A DNA stretch of 64,000 bases from an uncultured Butyricimonas sp. (GTDB lineage: Bacteria; Bacteroidota; Bacteroidia; Bacteroidales; Marinifilaceae), in the NCBI GenBank assembly GCA_944320555.1, contig CALUHX010000004.1, positions 1-64,000 of the forward strand. Reading direction: 5' to 3'. Positions 10,304 to 32,078 of this stretch are shown in pieces. Position 1 is the stretch's first letter. Each line of letters begins with the position of its first letter. A program made the translations under genes and the position numbers. The notes under the pieces are model-generated. The model saw only the letters and a list, made by a program, of their open reading frames with translations. It made no database searches and was not told where the DNA came from.

Positions 10304-10318
10304 GAAAGAGTTTGAAAG

Positions 10319-10718
10319 TGGAGCAGCAGGGAATCGAACCCTGGTCCAAACACGGAATCAATACGCTTTCTACATGCTTAGCTTTTTGTTGGTTTTCGAG
10401 CGTCGCCCGGAAAAAAGCACCCAAACGACACCTTAGCTTCTAAATTTTCGCCCCGGCGCCGAAGCTTCGCAAAGGCTAACCCTGTGTTAACTGCACCCCA
10501 AGTGCCGGGTGGTACAAGGTGGAACCTCCGGCGGGATGTCTTGTCTCCGCTATCCTTGAGCGGAGATTAAGCCTCGACCTACTATGCTTCGATCAGGCAG
10601 CAAGAGCGTAATTTCTTTCGCCAATTATAGTTTTGCGTCCGGGATTAACGGGCCGGCTTCACTACGCCCGACATGCTTACGCACCTATTCTTCATGCTGT
10701 CAAATCCACGTCTGCCCC
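10319..10718 (-). ncRNA. ssrA: Transfer-messenger RNA (tmRNA)
   Basis: One-piece tmRNA of about 400 nt that rescues stalled ribosomes and tags incomplete proteins for ClpXP. The 5' end GGGGCAG (10718-10712) pairs with 3' CTGCTCC plus discriminator A (10319), forming the tRNA-like acceptor stem. The T-arm region GGTTCGATTCC and the 5' TGGATTTGACAGC are hallmark sequences. The resume frame encodes GERNYALAA. CCA is not encoded. A near-perfect promoter lies just upstream and a hairpin downstream. Confidence 0.96.
10593..10622 (-). CDS. tmRNA proteolysis-tag reading frame
   Basis: GGC GAA AGA AAT TAC GCT CTT GCT GCC TGA encodes G-E-R-N-Y-A-L-A-A-stop, the peptide added after the tRNA-borne Ala. 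The ALAA end is the ClpX recognition signal. Arg at position 3 differs from the Asn or Thr I would expect from relatives such as Porphyromonas or Bacteroides. Confidence 0.92.
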   Translation of the reverse strand, partial: GERNYALAA

Positions 10719-14993: not shown

Positions 14994-15033
14994 AAACAAA
15001 AAAAACTGTCAGCTTGACAGTTTTTTTTGTTTT
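14994..15033. terminator. Bidirectional terminator between the small ORF and cas6
   Basis: ACTGTCA (15005-15011), loop GCT, TGACAGT (15015-15021), with an A-run on the left and eight T on the right plus an extended AAAC/GTTT pairing. The stop codon of cas6 (TGA at 15011-15009) is inside the left arm. Confidence 0.93.
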
Positions 15034-15806
15034 TCCAAGACTTCCATGCAGCCGAATCCTTGGCTGTTGAGCCTGCCAATCCCCACATGGTAAGCGATGG
15101 ACAGCAACTCAGGCTCCCCCTCCAATGCGAAACGGCAGAGATAGCCGCGCAATCTCGTGGGCATGCCCGAGGACTGCTTGATCGCTATCACCTTCGACTT
15201 CAGAGAGCCAAGCAGGCGGAAGCGGGTCGGCTCCCATTCCTCTGGCGGAGGACATTTGTGGATGGCCCGGTACTTCTCCACAAGGTTCGCATGAATCAAC
15301 GGCCCGAAAGCGGGATCGTCCGGTGAAAGGTGGCGGGTGGGATTCTTCCGTCGTCCCCGCCGCTCGTCCATGAAAATCGGCGACAACGCGCGGAACTCCA
15401 TTTTCCGGGAAAACTCCACCTCCGGGCAACGCTCCACCGCCTCCACGGAGAAATGGATTTGCGACTTGCGGTCGCCCAGCACGAAAGAGCAGTCGCAGAA
15501 CGTCCCGCTGACAAAAGGCTCCGCCAGTTCCATCGGATAAAACGAGACCACCAACCCTATCCGCTCGCTGCGGATGTCCATGCGGTCGCCTTTCACTTGG
15601 AAGGCGGGCACCTGCAAATGGGAAAAGGTGAACAACTTGAAATTCTTTCCCTCCCCGCAATACCCCCTCTCGTGGAGCCATGCGCCAAAACGGCTGTCGC
15701 TCCTGTTCAGCAGACGGTATATCCACGACGACAACTCATACTGATAGTTCAGCGGAAGCAACGTTCCTTTCTCCCGCTCCACGCGCAACGTCAACCTGAA
15801 CCTCAT
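15009..15806 (-). CDS. cas6: CRISPR-associated endoribonuclease Cas6, without other cas genes
   Basis: 265 residues. Two RAMP/ferredoxin-like halves: MRFRLTLRVEREKGTLLPL at the start, then the FGAWLHERGY helix carrying the candidate catalytic His, KNFKLFTFSHLQ, and the C-terminal glycine-rich loop GIGRLNSQGFGCMEV typical of Cas6. Cas6 cleaves CRISPR precursor RNA within the repeat. No array, Cas1/Cas2 or interference genes are in the window. It lies 3 bases behind a PAS-domain gene in one unit. It may process RNA from a distant array or another transcript. Confidence 0.9.
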   Translation of the reverse strand: MRFRLTLRVEREKGTLLPLNYQYELSSWIYRLLNRSDSRFGAWLHERGYCGEGKNFKLFTFSHLQVPAFQVKGDRMDIRSERIGLVVSFYPMELAEPFVSGTFCDCSFVLGDRKSQIHFSVEAVERCPEVEFSRKMEFRALSPIFMDERRGRRKNPTRHLSPDDPAFGPLIHANLVEKYRAIHKCPPPEEWEPTRFRLLGSLKSKVIAIKQSSGMPTRLRGYLCRFALEGEPELLSIAYHVGIGRLNSQGFGCMEVLEKQKKLSS

Positions 15807-24311: not shown

Positions 24312-25847
24312 TTATCTCTTCTTGTACTTATACAAACATTTACCGTTTTCTAAATACATTACGGGGAATACGTCTTGCAAATCAATATTCAATAAATATC
24401 GCTCTCTTAAATAATTCAAATCCGATAACAACAAATAATAATCAGTTTGATGGTTTTTATCCAGCTTATCACAAAGTCTAATATCACATATGCCAAAGTT
24501 ATCATCGCATACATTCTGATATAAAAGAACATTCTCACATATGAGTACACTTTTTGATGAATTTGCTTGCATGTAATTACTAACCATCTGCACTTCCTTA
24601 AACCGTTCTTGATATTCAAGCTCTGACATTCTTAATCTGAGAGAGTAAGTTGTATATAACGAAAAAACCAAAGCCATACAGGCTATTAGTCCTATTTGAT
24701 TAAACTTGCATTTTATAGAAACGAACATTAGAGGTATTAAATAGAAAAAATTATTGATATACCTATATGTCTCAAATGAAGAAACACGTTCTTCTTTAAT
24801 GAAGAAATAGCCCCTATAATGTAATGTATATAATAAAAGATACACACTAAATAAGACAAACGGGAATACCATATCTAATGTCAATCTTTTGTTACGAATA
24901 AGAAGGTAAATTAGCCACGCAACAGTTATTATAAATACAAAAGAAAAAGCCTCAATACCGAACATAGCTTCAATAAAAGCTGGGAAGAGTATTGTCATAT
25001 ACCGAATTGAGAATGTCGCATTCTTTATATCTTTGGACTCAATTTTTTCTATGTCAAAAACATTTTGGACAAACAAAAAATAGACGCATATAATAAACAC
25101 AAAAGGAATGTATTTCAACAATTCTACAATGTGATTTTTAATATTGAATCTATATTTTCCAAAAGTCAGATAAACAAATTCAATAGCAGGCAAGGTAAGT
25201 AAAGCCAAATTTTCCCTTTTACACATAATTGCCACAAGAAATGCGACAAGACATAGGGTATAGTTATATATACTTTTTCCCCTAAAATAAGTATAGACGA
25301 ATATCAAACAAACAAAACTTGAAAATATCTCTGATAAGAAACAGGTAGTAAACACGTTTATTATAGGCGCACAGCAATAAAGAACCGGTGGAACAAACCA
25401 GGATTTTTGATTCTTTGGAAGTATCGACAATATGAGTAAAATAAAAAAGGCGATGCTGGTATTTGCTATACTCAAAATGGTTGGAGACCATCCAAAAATA
25501 TTCGTAAATAGAGACAAAAAGGTTGGATACATAATAAAATGCCCACCATAAGTAGAGGTTAACATCGGCTCCGTAAGACTTCCGACAGAAACAGCGTCAA
25601 CCAAGAAAGAACTTGGAAATATGTTATATAAGAATTGTCTTGCGCAAAAGCTAAAAACATAAGCATCCTCATACTCCAATCCCCAAAAATGAACGCCATA
25701 ATTATATTTAAACAAAAGAGTTAGAACCAAACAAAGCAATATGCGCTTATACGGTTTTTGTATGGACTTAAAATCCCATATAAGTTCATGAATAAATAGA
25801 ATGAATAAAAATATGATTAGAACGACACATAGATAATACTGCCCCAT
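24312..25847 (-). CDS. Multi-TM membrane protein, probable GT-C glycosyltransferase
   Basis: 511 residues with at least ten hydrophobic segments and an acidic first external loop (GLEYEDAY) in the position where GT-C enzymes carry their catalytic DD/DE motif. I do not recognise a named family. GT-C enzymes transfer sugars from polyprenyl-phosphate carriers on the outer face of the inner membrane. The start at 25847 is chosen because it lies 2 bases after the stop of the polyprenyl-phosphate-type glycosyltransferase gene, with a GGAGAAAGGA ribosome site. AT-rich, like the hxs genes ahead of it, and unlike purM, with which it converges. It is the last gene of the hxs cluster. Confidence 0.6.
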   Translation of the reverse strand: MGQYYLCVVLIIFLFILFIHELIWDFKSIQKPYKRILLCLVLTLLFKYNYGVHFWGLEYEDAYVFSFCARQFLYNIFPSSFLVDAVSVGSLTEPMLTSTYGGHFIMYPTFLSLFTNIFGWSPTILSIANTSIAFFILLILSILPKNQKSWFVPPVLYCCAPIINVFTTCFLSEIFSSFVCLIFVYTYFRGKSIYNYTLCLVAFLVAIMCKRENLALLTLPAIEFVYLTFGKYRFNIKNHIVELLKYIPFVFIICVYFLFVQNVFDIEKIESKDIKNATFSIRYMTILFPAFIEAMFGIEAFSFVFIITVAWLIYLLIRNKRLTLDMVFPFVLFSVYLLLYTLHYRGYFFIKEERVSSFETYRYINNFFYLIPLMFVSIKCKFNQIGLIACMALVFSLYTTYSLRLRMSELEYQERFKEVQMVSNYMQANSSKSVLICENVLLYQNVCDDNFGICDIRLCDKLDKNHQTDYYLLLSDLNYLRERYLLNIDLQDVFPVMYLENGKCLYKYKKR

Positions 25848-25849
25848 TT

Positions 25850-26551
25850 TTATTTTCCTTTCTCCTTTTGTTTTATTGTATAATATACTACTTGACACCC
25901 ATATCTCGCCGAACGTAAAAATTTTATCGAGGATGAAAGATTGTCATATCTCGCAGGGCAATATATTTCTTGTATTTCATACCCTTTTGAGAACGCTTCT
26001 ATAATAATCTGATTGTCAAAAATGAAATCATTTGAAAAATCATGATACTTTATGGACATAAGCACATCTTTTCTATAAGCCCTATAGCCCGTATGATATT
26101 CTGACAAATGTTTCTTAAAACAGATATTTTGAAACATTGTAAGTATTCTATTGCACAAATACTTGTATAACGGCATTCCATTCTTCACCGCCTCCCACCC
26201 TTTTAGCATACGAGAAGCAAGAACAATATCTGCCCCTTGTAGAATTTTGTCTACAATAAGTGTTATCAAATTGGGGTCATATTGATAATCTGGATGAAGC
26301 ATTACAACAATATCAGCGTCTAACATTAACGCTGTATCATAACATGTTTTTTGATTTGCTCCGTATCCAAGATTTTTATTGTGCTTGACGATATGTTTAA
26401 TACGACATTCTTTGGCAACATTTAAAGTGTCATCAGAACTAAAATCATCTACCAAGACGATATCATTGACAATATCATGAGGTATCTCTGATATCGTTTT
26501 CTTTAGAGATTTTGCACAGTTGTAAGCTGGCAGAACAACAATAACTTTCAT
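25850..26551 (-). CDS. Family-2 glycosyltransferase, polyprenyl-phosphate sugar synthase type
   Basis: 233 residues. GT-A fold with MKVIVVLPAYNCAKSL, VLVDDFSSDDT, the nucleotide/metal motif LMLDADIVVMLHPDYQYDP and HTGYRAYRKDVL, the pattern of dolichol-phosphate-mannose synthase-like enzymes. It has no TM tail, so it is cytosolic or peripheral. The expected product is a polyprenyl-phosphate sugar that the following GT-C-like membrane protein would use. It starts 78 bases after hxsA2, behind a hairpin. A role in modifying the HxS peptides is inference from context. Confidence 0.85.
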   Translation of the reverse strand: MKVIVVLPAYNCAKSLKKTISEIPHDIVNDIVLVDDFSSDDTLNVAKECRIKHIVKHNKNLGYGANQKTCYDTALMLDADIVVMLHPDYQYDPNLITLIVDKILQGADIVLASRMLKGWEAVKNGMPLYKYLCNRILTMFQNICFKKHLSEYHTGYRAYRKDVLMSIKYHDFSNDFIFDNQIIIEAFSKGYEIQEIYCPARYDNLSSSIKFLRSARYGCQVVYYTIKQKEKGK

Positions 26552-26579
26552 AAATCAATATCAATTTAAAGTTTCCAAA

Positions 26580-26605
26580 GTGCGCCCAATAAAAATCGGG
26601 CGCAC
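26580..26605 (-). terminator. Intercistronic hairpin between hxsA2 and the glycosyltransferase genes
   Basis: GTGCGCCC / GGGCGCAC, a perfect 8-base GC-rich stem with a 10-base loop, followed on the minus strand by only TTTGG. It is GC-rich in an AT-rich area. It may act as a partial terminator or mRNA stabiliser, making precursor mRNA more abundant than glycosyltransferase mRNA. Confidence 0.65.
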
Positions 26606-26629
26606 CGAAGAATCATTTAGCCTCACAAC

Positions 26630-26887
26630 TCATATGCTCGAATAGTGAGAACTATGCGACCTATGCGAAGTGTGGGAGCTATGCGAACTATGTGAGCTAT
26701 GGGAACTGTGGCTTGCGAGTAGATTAAACTCGGCAGAGGACTGTTCCAGCACCAACGTCTGTTCTTGCTGCTGTTCGATTTGAGTGTCGCTGTTTGTCAC
26801 TTTGGCGACAATCTTTTCTCCAACAGAAGTACAGTAGCTCGCTCCTGCAAGAATTGCAGAGACCGCAAAGAACAAGAGTTTCTTCAT
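26630..26887 (-). CDS. hxsA2: His-Xaa-Ser repeat precursor peptide (Sec-exported form)
   Basis: 85 residues. Residues 1-20 are a Sec-type signal (MKKLLFFAVSAILAGAS). A linker of ~38 residues rich in Gln/Glu leads to eight consecutive His-Xaa-Ser triplets at 60-83 (Xaa = S,S,S,S,T,R,S,Y), and the chain ends HYSSI. This is the substrate type of the Hxs radical-SAM system. It starts 33 bases after hxsC. The end HYSS plus Ile/Leu is shared with the first precursor at 28063-28284. The export signal differs (no lipobox), so the mature peptide should be periplasmic or secreted. Confidence 0.88.
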   Translation of the reverse strand: MKKLLFFAVSAILAGASYCTSVGEKIVAKVTNSDTQIEQQQEQTLVLEQSSAEFNLLASHSSHSSHSSHSSHTSHRSHSSHYSSI

Positions 26888-26920: not shown

Positions 26921-28066
26921 TTAATTAACACACGATATATCGGATGATATATATTCAATTCTCTTAATATGTGAACTATGGATTTCTCTGCTGGATTCAA
27001 AAAGACCTGCACATTGATTTCGCAATGCACAGCCTTCGCATTCAGAAATATATATATCCTTCCAGTCAGAGATAGACTGTTGGGCATAAGGCCTTACATC
27101 TTCAGGCAACACACATAATTGTGCATTGTATATATACGGCTTCATTCCTCTATCAGCGAGCAATAAAACAGCTTCCCGTAATTCTGTCCTATAATCAAAT
27201 GGGTCTATCCAAAGTTGTTCAATATTTTCCTTTGCTAAACCAACAGTTTCCATTTGAATAAATGCGACCTGTGCAACAAAGGGAAAATTGTGATAAATAT
27301 AATCTGCAAATTGTGGCAATCGCTTATAAGTCTGTTTATGGACTACAATTCTAATCCCTATTCGTTGATGGAACAATGCAAGGTTGTATAAGCCTTGCAC
27401 AGTCTTATAAAAAGTCTTTGCTCCAACTATACGATTGTGTTCTTCTGCTATGTCTGAAAAAAGCGGAATGTCTATCTGCAAATCATGATGCCTACATTTT
27501 GCCAATTTCATTGCATACTCCTTATCTGCAAACTTTACTCCATTTGACAGAATACTGATTGCAGTTTTAGGAAGTTCTTCCTTAATATGATTTATCAAGA
27601 CAAACAAATTATCTCCGATAAGTGTCGGTTCTCCTCCGGTTATACCGATTTCTTGAGTACTCTTGTCAAACAGAGAAATCAATTTCAAGTTGAATGGAGT
27701 CTTGTCCTTTTCTTGTAGTATTGGAGGTTGTGGGCACATAATGCAACGATGGTTGCATCGTTCTGTAGCCATTATCGCATTATGAATAGATTTAATTTCA
27801 TATACAAAAATTATTTCTCCTTGTTTATTTACGACTACAACATCTCCCTCATTAAAAACACCTATACTGCTAACAATGCAATAAGGTTTACCATTATCTG
27901 TAATGAATTCATTTGCTGTAATTGTTGCAACATATCCAGATTTCGGACTCGTGGCGTTTTTATTAACCCATATTTCATTAGTACGATGAAACACATTCTT
28001 TTTGAATGTTATTCGCCCAATAATATCTTCATTTATATTATATGAAATTCCTTTTATCTGTTTCAT
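26921..28066 (-). CDS. hxsC: His-Xaa-Ser system radical SAM maturase HxsC
   Basis: 381 residues. A ~95-residue N-terminal beta-rich domain precedes a radical SAM core with CNHRCIMC (Cys104, 108, 111), ITGGEPTLIG (142-151) and LQIDIPLFSD. Three further Cys near the C-terminus (343, 346, 352 in CEGCALRNQC) resemble an auxiliary cluster site. The last residues contain IHSSH, like its substrate. The ATG overlaps the stop of hxsA (ATGA), so the two are translationally coupled. Radical SAM chemistry on His or Ser of the repeat is expected; the product is not established as far as I know. Confidence 0.9.
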   Translation of the reverse strand: MKQIKGISYNINEDIIGRITFKKNVFHRTNEIWVNKNATSPKSGYVATITANEFITDNGKPYCIVSSIGVFNEGDVVVVNKQGEIIFVYEIKSIHNAIMATERCNHRCIMCPQPPILQEKDKTPFNLKLISLFDKSTQEIGITGGEPTLIGDNLFVLINHIKEELPKTAISILSNGVKFADKEYAMKLAKCRHHDLQIDIPLFSDIAEEHNRIVGAKTFYKTVQGLYNLALFHQRIGIRIVVHKQTYKRLPQFADYIYHNFPFVAQVAFIQMETVGLAKENIEQLWIDPFDYRTELREAVLLLADRGMKPYIYNAQLCVLPEDVRPYAQQSISDWKDIYISECEGCALRNQCAGLFESSREIHSSHIKRIEYISSDISCVN

Positions 28067-28284
28067 AAACTCGAATAATGTGATATATGTGAAAAATGTG
28101 ACGAATGTGATGAATGTGAAGCGTGCTGTATGCGGTCTATTATTGGCTGTTGGGTTGATGGTTGCAGAATCAATGAATCCACGTTGTTGCTTATGGATTC
28201 ATCCTCTTTTGCATTTTTTGTCGTCGAACAAGTTATTAAGCCCCAAAATGCAAATAGCAATATAACAATCTTTTTCATATTCAT
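28063..28284 (-). CDS. hxsA: His-Xaa-Ser repeat precursor peptide (lipoprotein form)
   Basis: 73 residues from ATG 28284 (a second ATG at 28278 is equally possible). A lipoprotein signal with Cys19 in GLITC, a ~34-residue linker, then six His-Xaa-Ser triplets at 54-71 (Xaa = A,S,S,F,I,Y), ending HYSSL. The mature repeat would be tethered to the membrane by its lipid, unlike hxsA2. It sits between hxsB and hxsC, 8 bases after hxsB, and overlaps hxsC by 4 bases. The Phe/Ile/Tyr in the Xaa positions become more hydrophobic toward the end, as in hxsA2. Confidence 0.87.
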   Translation of the reverse strand: MNMKKIVILLFAFWGLITCSTTKNAKEDESISNNVDSLILQPSTQQPIIDRIQHASHSSHSSHFSHISHYSSL

Positions 28285-28292
28285 TTTTATTT

Positions 28293-29717
28293 TCAATTTA
28301 ACCAAGACCAAAAAATTCTGTTTATCTCAGGGTCATGCTTGTGCAGTAACTCAAACAAATAACGTATTATTGATTTTGTCTTTTTACACATTTCATTTGT
28401 CGGTCTGAAACCAATCATATCTCCCTGTTCAGACATATTACGTACGGGGTCTGCACCGCAATAAGGCTGGAACACACATTCGGAACATACGGGTAGGCAC
28501 TCAGTACAAGCAGAAGAAATAATATGGTGTAGAAGTTCACCATTGAACATTTCCTGATAACTGTTTTCATTCACATTGCCCAGCCTGAAATAGTAGTTCT
28601 TGAAACGTGCCATCATTCGGGCTTCATCCGATACATATACACTCCCGTCATAATCATAGATGACGCCTGCAATTCCAACGCCTGCGGGAGATTGTAAATC
28701 AACAAAGCCTGTTGCAAACGGTGTAAGCATCCTCCTTAAAAGGAGTGCGGCAAATCCCTCTACAAAAAATGTTCCTTTCTTGTTCAATTCTATGATATAG
28801 TCAAGACCCTCTTTATAATTTTCAATGAAATCCTCTATAGGGTAAGCTATCTTTTCCTTGTACTGTTTTGCAAAACCGTATGGGTTAAGAGAGCGTAAGA
28901 ATATATTGTTGAATCCCAATCGTATGTATTCGTCAATTATTTCTGTAAAACGCCCCAAACTATATTTCGAGGTCGTCATAAGTGCGGAAGCACAATCATT
29001 GTTTCCCCATATTTCCCGTATCATGGAGAGATGCTTCTCAAAGATTGCATGATGGTCTAACTCGTTGTCTTGCAGCGGACGATTTGTGTCGTGCAGATCT
29101 TTAGGACCGTCCAACGATGTAGAAATCATACAGTTATGTTTCTTCAGGTATTTCACCATCTTTTCGTTCAGCAAGGTCAAATTGGTACAAATAACGAAAT
29201 CCAACTCTTTCTTTTTGAAAAGGTTTTGCCACTCTGCTTCCTCTATGATATATTTCACCATTTCAAAATCGGTTGAAGGGTCGCCGCCCTGAAACTCTAT
29301 CTTGATACACGGTGAAGGTGATTGGAAGATTGTTTTTACAATATTCTTAGCCGTCTGTTTTGTCATATCGGCAGAGTGGTCGTCCCGATTTTTGCGTGCG
29401 ACCTGACAATATATGCAACTGGAATTACAACGCAATGTCGGAACCACCATGTGTAGAGAAGTGAAGTCACGAAGTATGCTTTTCTTTGTGCGAAATTTTG
29501 TCGCAAGCATTGAAACCACATCTTCAACCTTATCTGTCGTAGCAATTTGTTTCGATTCAATATCATAAAACAAATCAGTATGTATATCCATTTCTCCATC
29601 CACAAAACGATGAAAATCCTCGTTTTGCAAGAAGATATATTCCCCGACTTCATTTGTAAGGAGATATTCTGTATCATTGAACCGTTCAAAACGGAATGGC
29701 AATAACTGATAATCCAT
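28293..29717 (-). CDS. hxsB: His-Xaa-Ser system radical SAM/SPASM maturase HxsB
   Basis: 474 residues. Residues ~5-80 form a small domain (FERFNDTEYLLTNEVGEYIF) resembling peptide-recognition elements of other RiPP maturases. The radical SAM motif is CNSSCIYC (Cys97, 101, 104), followed by FQGGDPS and STSLDGPKDLHD. The C-terminal SPASM domain carries Cys404, 407, 411, 414, 420 and 444 (CTECLPVCSEC, YCGADP), enough for two auxiliary 4Fe-4S clusters. It follows hxsD by 4 bases. This is the main maturase of the system. Confidence 0.93.
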   Translation of the reverse strand: MDYQLLPFRFERFNDTEYLLTNEVGEYIFLQNEDFHRFVDGEMDIHTDLFYDIESKQIATTDKVEDVVSMLATKFRTKKSILRDFTSLHMVVPTLRCNSSCIYCQVARKNRDDHSADMTKQTAKNIVKTIFQSPSPCIKIEFQGGDPSTDFEMVKYIIEEAEWQNLFKKKELDFVICTNLTLLNEKMVKYLKKHNCMISTSLDGPKDLHDTNRPLQDNELDHHAIFEKHLSMIREIWGNNDCASALMTTSKYSLGRFTEIIDEYIRLGFNNIFLRSLNPYGFAKQYKEKIAYPIEDFIENYKEGLDYIIELNKKGTFFVEGFAALLLRRMLTPFATGFVDLQSPAGVGIAGVIYDYDGSVYVSDEARMMARFKNYYFRLGNVNENSYQEMFNGELLHHIISSACTECLPVCSECVFQPYCGADPVRNMSEQGDMIGFRPTNEMCKKTKSIIRYLFELLHKHDPEINRIFWSWLN

Positions 29718-29721
29718 ATTC

Positions 29722-30054
29722 TCATTTTGAATTTACTGGTTTGAACGCTTCTTCAACTATCATATCACGAATGTGCCCAAATTGGGCATTAACGTCATGC
29801 CGCAGTTGTTGGTCTATCAATTCATTGCAAAATTGCTTGGGAATGCCAACGGTAATGACATTGTCATCCTTTGATTCAAAAATGACAAGCACCAAATTAG
29901 GATTGGATTTATCCGTTTGCTGATGAATATAAAACAAATGTGAAAACTTATAGATTGCTGCCGTTATTACATCTTTGGAATACAGAGCCAAATCTACAAT
30001 TACTTGAAACTTGTTATTATCAAGCTCGACAACGGGAAATTGAATCTTTGCCAT
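29722..30054 (-). CDS. hxsD: His-Xaa-Ser system protein HxsD
   Basis: 110 residues with no signal peptide. The family core DLALYSKDVITAAIYKFSHL is present near 21-40, followed by a beta-alpha segment. HxsD is the small partner always found with HxsB and HxsC; its role is unknown, probably substrate delivery or a maturase subunit. First gene of the operon, preceded by the structured leader at 30114-30426. A second ATG 5 bases upstream is out of frame. Confidence 0.85.
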   Translation of the reverse strand: MAKIQFPVVELDNNKFQVIVDLALYSKDVITAAIYKFSHLFYIHQQTDKSNPNLVLVIFESKDDNVITVGIPKQFCNELIDQQLRHDVNAQFGHIRDMIVEEAFKPVNSK

Positions 30055-31031: not shown

Positions 31032-32078
31032 TCACTCATCCTCTTTTCCATGCTGTTCCATAAAGAAACGTTTCTGCTGCTCAATCTCCCGGCGCAATTC
31101 CTCTTCGGTAGGCATGTATGTCATATATTTGGCAGCAAAAATCTGGTCGCTGTCGTGCAATACTGAATATTTTGCTATGGTGTTGTCCGTATCTGTGCAG
31201 AGCAACACGCCGACGGTCGGATTGTCATCCTTTCCCTTAACCAAATCATCGTACATACGGATGTACATATCCAGCTGTCCGATGTCCTGATGGGTCAACT
31301 TATGGGTCTTCAGTTCAAAGATGACGAACCGTTTCATCTTGTAATTATAGAATACAAGGTCGATGTAGAAATCAGCCGTATCGGTCACAATATGTTGTTG
31401 TCTTTCCACGAAAGCGAATCCACGACCGAGTTCCATGATGAATTTTTCGAGATTGTCAATCAATGCCTGTTCCAGTTCTGACTCGGAATAGTCGATGCTT
31501 TGGTGGAATCCCATAAATTCGGCCACCACCGGATTCTTTATGTATTCCAACGGATCCGCTTGACTGGTATAAGGCGCGGGCAGAGTCGAACTCTCCTTTT
31601 GGGCCGCAAGCCGTCGTTCATAATATTGGGTGGAGATATTCCTGTCAAGATCGTCCACACTCCACATATCCTCGGCGGCTGTATTCAGATACCATTCCCT
31701 TGCTCGCGTATTGCTGACGGAAAGAAGCCTGCGGACATGTGACCAAGTAAGATTTTGCACACGCGTGTGCAAAATCTCCACGTCTCTGAATTCCAGATAG
31801 AACTTCCGATAATATGCCAAATTACGCTTACCATAGCCGGTTCCGTATTCCGCAGAAAGCCTGGCTGCAAGAGCCGGAATAAGTTTTTGTCCGTATGCAG
31901 CCCTGCTTGCTCCATGTTGCTCCTCTTCCACGATACGCCGTCCGATGTTCCAATAAGTCATGATGGCTATTTGGCCTGTTGCGGCATACGCTTGTTTCCG
32001 TCCTTGCTCTATAATGGTTCTGATATCGGAAACGAGATTCTCGGTTATTACATCGATCTGTTGTTTATTCTTTTCCAT
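31032..32078 (-). CDS. DUF1016 / YhcG-type PDDEXK nuclease-domain protein
   Basis: 348 residues. The N-terminal DUF1016_N winged-helix part (TYWNIGRRIVEEEQHG, GYGKRNLAYYRKFYLEF, LSVSNTRAREWYL) is followed by the YhcG PDDEXK domain: DNLEKFIMELGRGFAFVERQ, FYIDLVFYN (Asp) and RFVIFELKTHKLTHQD (Glu-x-Lys). Predicted DNA endonuclease of a family tied to mobile DNA and phage defence; some members stimulate recombination. Flanked by the asmA tail duplication, so likely a recent insertion. 48-62 bases of spacer lie on each side of the gene. Confidence 0.9.
   Translation of the reverse strand: MEKNKQQIDVITENLVSDIRTIIEQGRKQAYAATGQIAIMTYWNIGRRIVEEEQHGASRAAYGQKLIPALAARLSAEYGTGYGKRNLAYYRKFYLEFRDVEILHTRVQNLTWSHVRRLLSVSNTRAREWYLNTAAEDMWSVDDLDRNISTQYYERRLAAQKESSTLPAPYTSQADPLEYIKNPVVAEFMGFHQSIDYSESELEQALIDNLEKFIMELGRGFAFVERQQHIVTDTADFYIDLVFYNYKMKRFVIFELKTHKLTHQDIGQLDMYIRMYDDLVKGKDDNPTVGVLLCTDTDNTIAKYSVLHDSDQIFAAKYMTYMPTEEELRREIEQQKRFFMEQHGKEDE

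Follow-up and report, generated by a model that had tools for sequence, protein, structure and literature searches.

A polyprenyl-phosphate sugar synthase and a GT-C-like membrane protein behind hxsA2 in an uncultured Butyricimonas: a candidate optional sugar-transfer arm of Hxs modules

The whole stretch of DNA analysed here, hereafter the window, spans 64,000 nucleotides of an uncultured Butyricimonas sp. and carries on its minus strand, in this order, hxsD, hxsB, a gene for an HxsA-like peptide, hxsC, hxsA2, a terminator-like hairpin, a glycosyltransferase gene (GT2) and a gene for a membrane protein (GTC1). HxsD (29722-30054; 110 aa) and the radical SAM maturases HxsB (28293-29717; 474 aa) and HxsC (26921-28066; 381 aa) score 93, 644 and 381 bits against the NCBIfam models TIGR03976, TIGR03978 and TIGR03977, with cut-offs of 50, 370 and 268 bits, respectively, and the 85-aa HxsA2 precursor (26630-26887) scores 62.8 bits against a cut-off of 48 (NF038296). 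As all four exceed curated cut-offs, this is an hxs cluster, and it shares with the Hxs systems as modelled (TIGR03976-TIGR03979, NF038296), whose founding paper is that of Haft and Basu as cited in the accessible text of PMC9062424, both these proteins and an exported HxS-repeat precursor; it differs in the glycosyltransferase pair that follows hxsA2. HxsA2 has an N-terminal hydrophobic segment and the C-terminal sequence SHSSHSSHSSHSSHTSHRSHSSHYSSI. The second HxsA-like peptide (28063-28284; 73 aa), encoded between hxsB and hxsC and ending in the tail HSSHSSHFSHISHYSSL, scores under the cut-off of every HxsA model, and is absent at two related loci discussed below (L051 and L052). Extra HxS proteins were also seen between hxsD and hxsB at other loci (L057, L061 and L085). 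The GC content of the block is 31-40%, against 55-60% in its flanks, so that it looks acquired.

Nucleases are recurrent near hxs. In the window, a DUF1016/YhcG-type nuclease (31032-32078, minus strand; PADLOC PDC-S02) lies near the cluster, and nucleases of this type also occur at L052, L054 and L068; a thermonuclease is encoded past hxsC at L049 (10588-11304), an Endonuclease_NS protein near hxs at L079 (5858-6880), and an SNase with an N-terminal hydrophobic segment immediately past GTC1 at L094 (14862-15437). Elsewhere in the window, the minus strand carries a tmRNA gene (10318-10718; tag GERNYALAA) and a putative Cas6-like open reading frame of 265 aa (15009-15806), the latter recognized by eye only.

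GT2 (25850-26551, minus strand) encodes a 233-aa DPM1-like polyprenyl-phosphate sugar synthase without a TM segment, and the ATG of GTC1 (24312-25847, minus strand), which encodes a multi-TM, GT-C-like protein of 511 aa with the motif GLEYEDAY at residue 56, stands 2 bases past the GT2 stop codon; an alternative GTC1 frame of 528 aa opens at an upstream GTG. A preliminary description of this DNA had noted just such a succession beside hxs, a DPM1-like enzyme and, 2 bases on, a multi-TM protein, and both the reading frames and the sequence agree with it. GT2 matches PF00535 (E 4.2e-18; 66 bits against a cut-off of 23), its best solved relative in a PDB search is the dolichol-phosphate mannose synthase of P. 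furiosus (5mlz, E 3.2e-13), and its nearest NCBIfam models are polyprenyl- and dolichyl-phosphate sugar synthases (AglJ, 4.4e-19; PpgS, 4.2e-16). The motif DADLQ binds metal in enzymes of the DPMS type; GT2 carries HPDYQ in its place, retaining the second Asp and the Gln.

The GT2 subfamily extends beyond hxs loci, being found elsewhere in three genomes (G538, G579 and G573), and we accordingly rejected the notion that GT2 is hxs-specific. Its closest relative away from hxs (54% identical; in G538, the genome of locus L052) adjoins GtrA (PF04138) and a PMT_2 protein, and in G573, the genome of locus L087, a subfamily member has two large, TPR-tailed TM proteins and a type IV pilin-like gene for neighbors (L182, 2884-8255). 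The latter stretch looks like a pilin glycosylation locus, although the pilin is a reading of the sequence alone. Such varied membrane partners would be expected of a donor synthase working for more than one kind of membrane transferase. The pair in the window thus resembles the combination of a DPM1/GtrB-type GT2 with a PMT_2 (GT39-like) GT-C enzyme, both in the two-step polyprenyl-phosphate sugar logic and in the neighborhood of that closest relative; it differs in that GTC1 is unmatched by Pfam PMT_2 or PMT and that no GtrA accompanies it.

How often such a pair accompanies hxs was surveyed by an HxsB alignment scan of 84,980 species genomes, from which the best 80 of 572 confirmed loci were used; as the best of the 572, these lean toward HxsB proteins like that of the window, and absence at some of them weighs little because contigs end near hxs. 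By tblastn, GTC1 is present at four of these best 80 loci in addition to the window: in a Paraprevotella MAG (L051; HxsB 98% and GTC1 78% identical to those of the window), a Bacteroidaceae MAG (L065; 80% and 39%), a Smithella MAG (L094; 46% and 29%, E 2e-36) and, on a 6.2-kb contig whose bin is uncertain, a MAG labelled Lokiarchaeota (L091; 47% and 24%, E 1e-19). A GT2 gene lies adjacent to or near GTC1 in three of the four, with the window's gene order at L051 and L065 and on the opposite strand at L091, while the Smithella genome has its GT2 of this subfamily (47%, E 1e-63) on a different contig. The GT2 of L051 (11010-11704) is frameshifted into a 208-aa frame and an out-of-frame tail, reflecting either real decay or an assembly error. 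An HMM search of the 1,160 open reading frames of the 80 loci agreed with this, returning these four GTC1 and three GT2 proteins plus two weak generic GT2 matches. The PMT_2 profile matched a single one of these 1,160 frames, at L088, where it lies at least about 6 kb from hxs, and GT-C enzymes are therefore uncommon beside hxs in general.

The pair is absent at 76 of the 80 other loci (again the best 80 of 572), including one whose HxsB is 90% identical to that of the window (L052) and where DNA similarity to the window ends where hxsA2 ends, to be followed by another gene. We therefore reject the pair as a fixed part of Hxs, and with it the broader claim that it forms a general arm of these systems. 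The pair is thus optional, and its gain or loss has been that of one unit at a single site; no GTC1 remnant was found at sister loci. On the HxsB tree, a quick tree of 79 rows with 20 inner branches open, from which rows without an HxsB frame of more than 430 aa were dropped, the presence of GTC1 needs at least four changes (the window with L051; L065; L091; L094), and sisters L067, L087 and L052 are without it. Downstream of hxs, in the 63 of 109 listed open reading frames that a Pfam overview took in, no family occurs in more than three, and the neighbors are otherwise diverse. At four of the five loci with GTC1, hxsA is directly followed, without an intervening gene, by the leading gene of the pair or by GTC1, and outside this block the flanking genes differ. 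Recurrence of this kind argues against the pair as an ordinary chance neighbor, which we likewise rejected.

Searches away from hxs point the same way as far as GTC1 is concerned. Whole-genome searches of 50 of the 80 hxs genomes with a profile of the five GTC1 members (A2) gave four matches, each at an hxs locus. Among 344 genomes of the window's order a full-length match to GTC1 occurs only in the window's own genome, the eight other matches to the GTC1 profile being partial (E 4e-7 to 7e-4); among 198 genomes from the phylum to which the Smithella MAG belongs, only that MAG has a full-length match, with two others partial; and among 119 genomes of the phylum of the L091 genome, only that genome matches the profile. 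BLAST with the GTC1 of the window gave no other good match in 395 genomes of its phylum and 144 of its relatives (samples which overlap with each other and with the 344 genomes of the order, and were kept unmerged), tblastn of plasmids with the GTC1 of the window and of L094 gave no match, and scans of viral contigs with GTC1 and DUF6056 alignments gave no relative. The tie of GTC1 to hxs is thus well supported, and GTC1 is apparently exclusive to hxs; since four of the five copies came to light through inspection of hxs loci, this exclusivity rests on the samples, which cover a small share of existing genomes. The preliminary description, which had tied the pair to Hxs, withstands this neighborhood survey in its GTC1 half, found with hxs only in everything searched, and does so less well in its GT2 half, which also occurs away from hxs.

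That description had also placed the pair at the end of the hxs operon. The position holds, but a strong, terminator-like hairpin (26574-26611, minus strand; z -3.2 for an 81-nt region) lies between hxsA2 and GT2 and ends 22 nt ahead of the GT2 start codon. Terminator-like hairpins of unrelated sequence follow hxsA in most of the 22 loci examined, with or without glycosyltransferase genes, which points to a general trait, namely a precursor gene that is highly expressed and behind which transcription ends. As the hairpin parts the pair from hxsA2, the pair is at best a tail reached by read-through. GT2 starts 22-30 nt past the hairpin in the window, L051 and L065, which would leave too little room for an ordinary promoter of its own, and at L094 GTC1 starts 91 nt past it.

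There is an architectural precedent for this order of acceptor gene, terminator, glycosyltransferase and membrane protein in the Pgf system of Streptococcus mutans (cnm-pgfS-pgfM1-pgfE-pgfM2). In the accessible text of its description (PMC5856776), cnm is followed by a rho-independent terminator, the glycosyltransferase gene pgfS and the membrane protein gene pgfM1; cnm, pgfS and pgfM1 are co-transcribed across the terminator by RT-PCR; and deletion of pgfS or pgfM1 abolished Cnm modification. According to the same portion of that source, pgfS is of the GT-A type, the membrane protein is co-translated, and the system glycosylates a Thr-rich stretch of an exported protein, which we count as a further likeness. 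Against this, Pgf is without radical SAM genes and the window without an epimerase, and GT2 is only remotely PgfS-like (36 bits against a cut-off of 500 for NF047588).

A membrane protein of another type occupies the same place at two further loci. Among the loci listed, a same-strand gene begins within 100 nt past hxsA at seven (L070, L062, L079, L065, L051, L088 and L052): two of these genes start a GT2-GTC1 pair, two are of the DUF6056 type, and three are other (an endonuclease, a second HxS protein and an unknown gene). The DUF6056-type multi-TM proteins of L062 (12871-14151) and L070 (12894-14219) start about 11-20 nt past the hairpin behind hxsA, holding the place of GT2-GTC1 in the window; that of L070 matches DUF6056 (E 2.5e-15) and that of L062 is its relative (35% identity), and a deacetylase-like gene and a GT2 gene lie further on at L070. 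Membership of DUF6056 in GT-C, suggested by a conserved ACDD motif, is at best a guess: the structure model of the L070 protein has a pLDDT of 39, and profile comparisons of DUF6056 with GTC1 and with PMT_2 were not significant.

We favor, with slightly better than even confidence, a reading in which the pair is an optional extracytoplasmic sugar-transfer arm of the Hxs module, with HxsA as its likeliest acceptor. An unlikely competitor is a lipid- or glycan-modifying cassette, akin to ArnC/ArnT modification of lipid A or to Gtr-like polysaccharide glucosylation, that merely rides the mobile hxs island. The block is a low-GC island, as such a rider would suggest, and the ArnC/ArnT system likewise pairs a GT2 with a GT-C enzyme: ArnT (5ezm) is the first, non-significant row of a Foldseek search with the GTC1 model (E 0.21), and GT2 weakly matches ArnC chains in the PDB and the NCBIfam ArnC model (NF007986; 5.8e-10). 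The latter score, at 38.7 bits, is nonetheless far under the ArnC cut-off of 529, and is bettered by those for DPM synthase, AglJ and PpgS; no GtrA flippase stands beside the pair; the pair is linked to a peptide module; and a cassette that was only along for the ride should not recur in four distinct hxs lineages while the samples otherwise lack it.

It is less likely again that HxsA is spared and the pair glycosylates a different exported protein, such as a surface protein of the host, and that hxs and the pair were co-selected as surface-modifying functions. The optional nature of the pair would fit this, as would the company that the GT2 subfamily keeps with other membrane proteins (GtrA and PMT_2 in G538; the TM-TPR proteins and pilin-like gene in G573) and the modification by S. 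mutans Pgf, in the accessible text of its report, of WapA besides Cnm (PMC5856776); the recurrent placement of the pair or GTC1 directly past hxsA in four of five GTC1 loci, within flanks that differ, speaks for HxsA instead. The general protein O-glycosylation of Bacteroidota offers a likeness within the same phylum, in that it places O-linked sugar on exported proteins outside the cytoplasm, and in the accessible part of its description requires a D-S/T-hydrophobic motif (PMC12871550). By sequence, this motif does not occur in HxsA2, whose one Asp lies in DTQ and whose HxS repeats are without Asp; the second HxsA-like peptide has one DSL, outside its repeats. HxsA peptides at loci bearing glycosyltransferases look like those elsewhere, and the idea that they are recognizably different was rejected on comparison.

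The sugar-transfer reading depends on what GTC1 is. The 528-aa frame of the window matches no Pfam or NCBIfam family at E <= 1, the Pfam PMT models do not match the GTC1 of L065, L091 or L094 at E <= 0.1, and a PDB sequence search with the GTC1 profile returned no match. The residues G56-L57-E58-Y59-E60-D61, which place an acidic pair in the first large loop, are invariant in all five members, as is H343-Y344-R345; simple hydropathy and loop-charge counts disagree between members as to the side of the membrane on which this loop lies. The AlphaFold2 model, built from the five-member alignment (A2), is poor (pLDDT 56.8), and Foldseek gave no match to it at E <= 0.001. In VIA-align, the rows that align over more than 340 residues are all GT-C enzymes (STT3, DPY19, ALG9, ALG12, PglB, AglB and ArnT), at Z 5.5-7.5, in a range (under 8 to 13) where Z can reflect a common arrangement. 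Eight weak outside matches of the GTC1 profile, taken from the eight of the order sample and five of the Smithella-phylum sample with members excluded, comprise five PMT_2 or PMT proteins, a TMEM260-like O-mannosyltransferase, a TPR protein and an aquaporin-like protein. With hhalign, GTC1 aligns to eight PMT_2 proteins selected by Pfam family at prob 70.8 (E 3.8e-5), to random five-member PMT_2 subsets at prob 0.8 to 56, and to the profile's own PMT_2 matches, proteins picked by that same profile, at prob 96.

Together these comparisons lend moderate support to GT-C as the best reading of GTC1, short of proof; the GT-C fold proposed in the preliminary description is thus favored by the PMT_2 profile matches and the long structural rows, and is held back by the poor model. 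That GTC1 is instead another polytopic membrane protein, such as a peptide transporter or protease, with a GT-C likeness due to chance in hydrophobic sequence, is improbable: the lack of family matches, the poor model and the presence of MFS transporters among the short VIA-align rows (about 95 residues) would allow it, whereas the profile matches to PMT_2 and TMEM260, the prob of 0.2 for an MFS transporter control in hhalign, the invariance of E58, E60, D61 and H343-Y344-R345, and the adjoining GT2 donor synthase argue against it.

In the sugar-transfer reading, GT2 would load one sugar onto polyprenyl phosphate at the cytoplasmic face, a protein encoded elsewhere would flip the resulting sugar-lipid, and GTC1, through the conserved acidic E/ED of GLEYED in what would be its first large outer loop, would transfer the sugar outside the cytoplasmic membrane. 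Exported HxsA, whose gene lies directly upstream of the pair, would be the likeliest acceptor, and the Ser of the HxS repeats, the most abundant hydroxyl in HxsA, a candidate acceptor residue; the pair would be expressed below the level of hxsA, by read-through of the hairpin past hxsA2. A different residue or a different molecule may instead receive the sugar, which may or may not be mannose, as in the O-mannosylation logic of the preliminary description. The preliminary suggestion of a glycosylation arm for HxS peptides emerges stronger than its author could have known, although for a minority of Hxs loci only. In the literature searched, which took in few subscription papers, we found no report of Hxs glycosylation and no account of the product and role of Hxs systems.

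More broadly, and with a confidence just short of even, we propose that Hxs modules in microbes unrelated to each other have on several occasions acquired a dedicated membrane glycosyltransferase at one fixed place past the hxsA terminator, namely GTC1 (with or without GT2) in four or more lineages and a DUF6056-type protein in two others, and that the product is a glycosylated, radical-SAM-modified, exported HxS peptide. If so, this would be a kind of modified peptide that we have not met in any description. A dedicated sugar arm would imply surface exposure and glycosylation of at least some mature HxS peptides, would offer a handle for their purification by lectin or by hexose mass shift, and would define, in GTC1, a new GT-C family whose candidate substrate is linked to it genetically.
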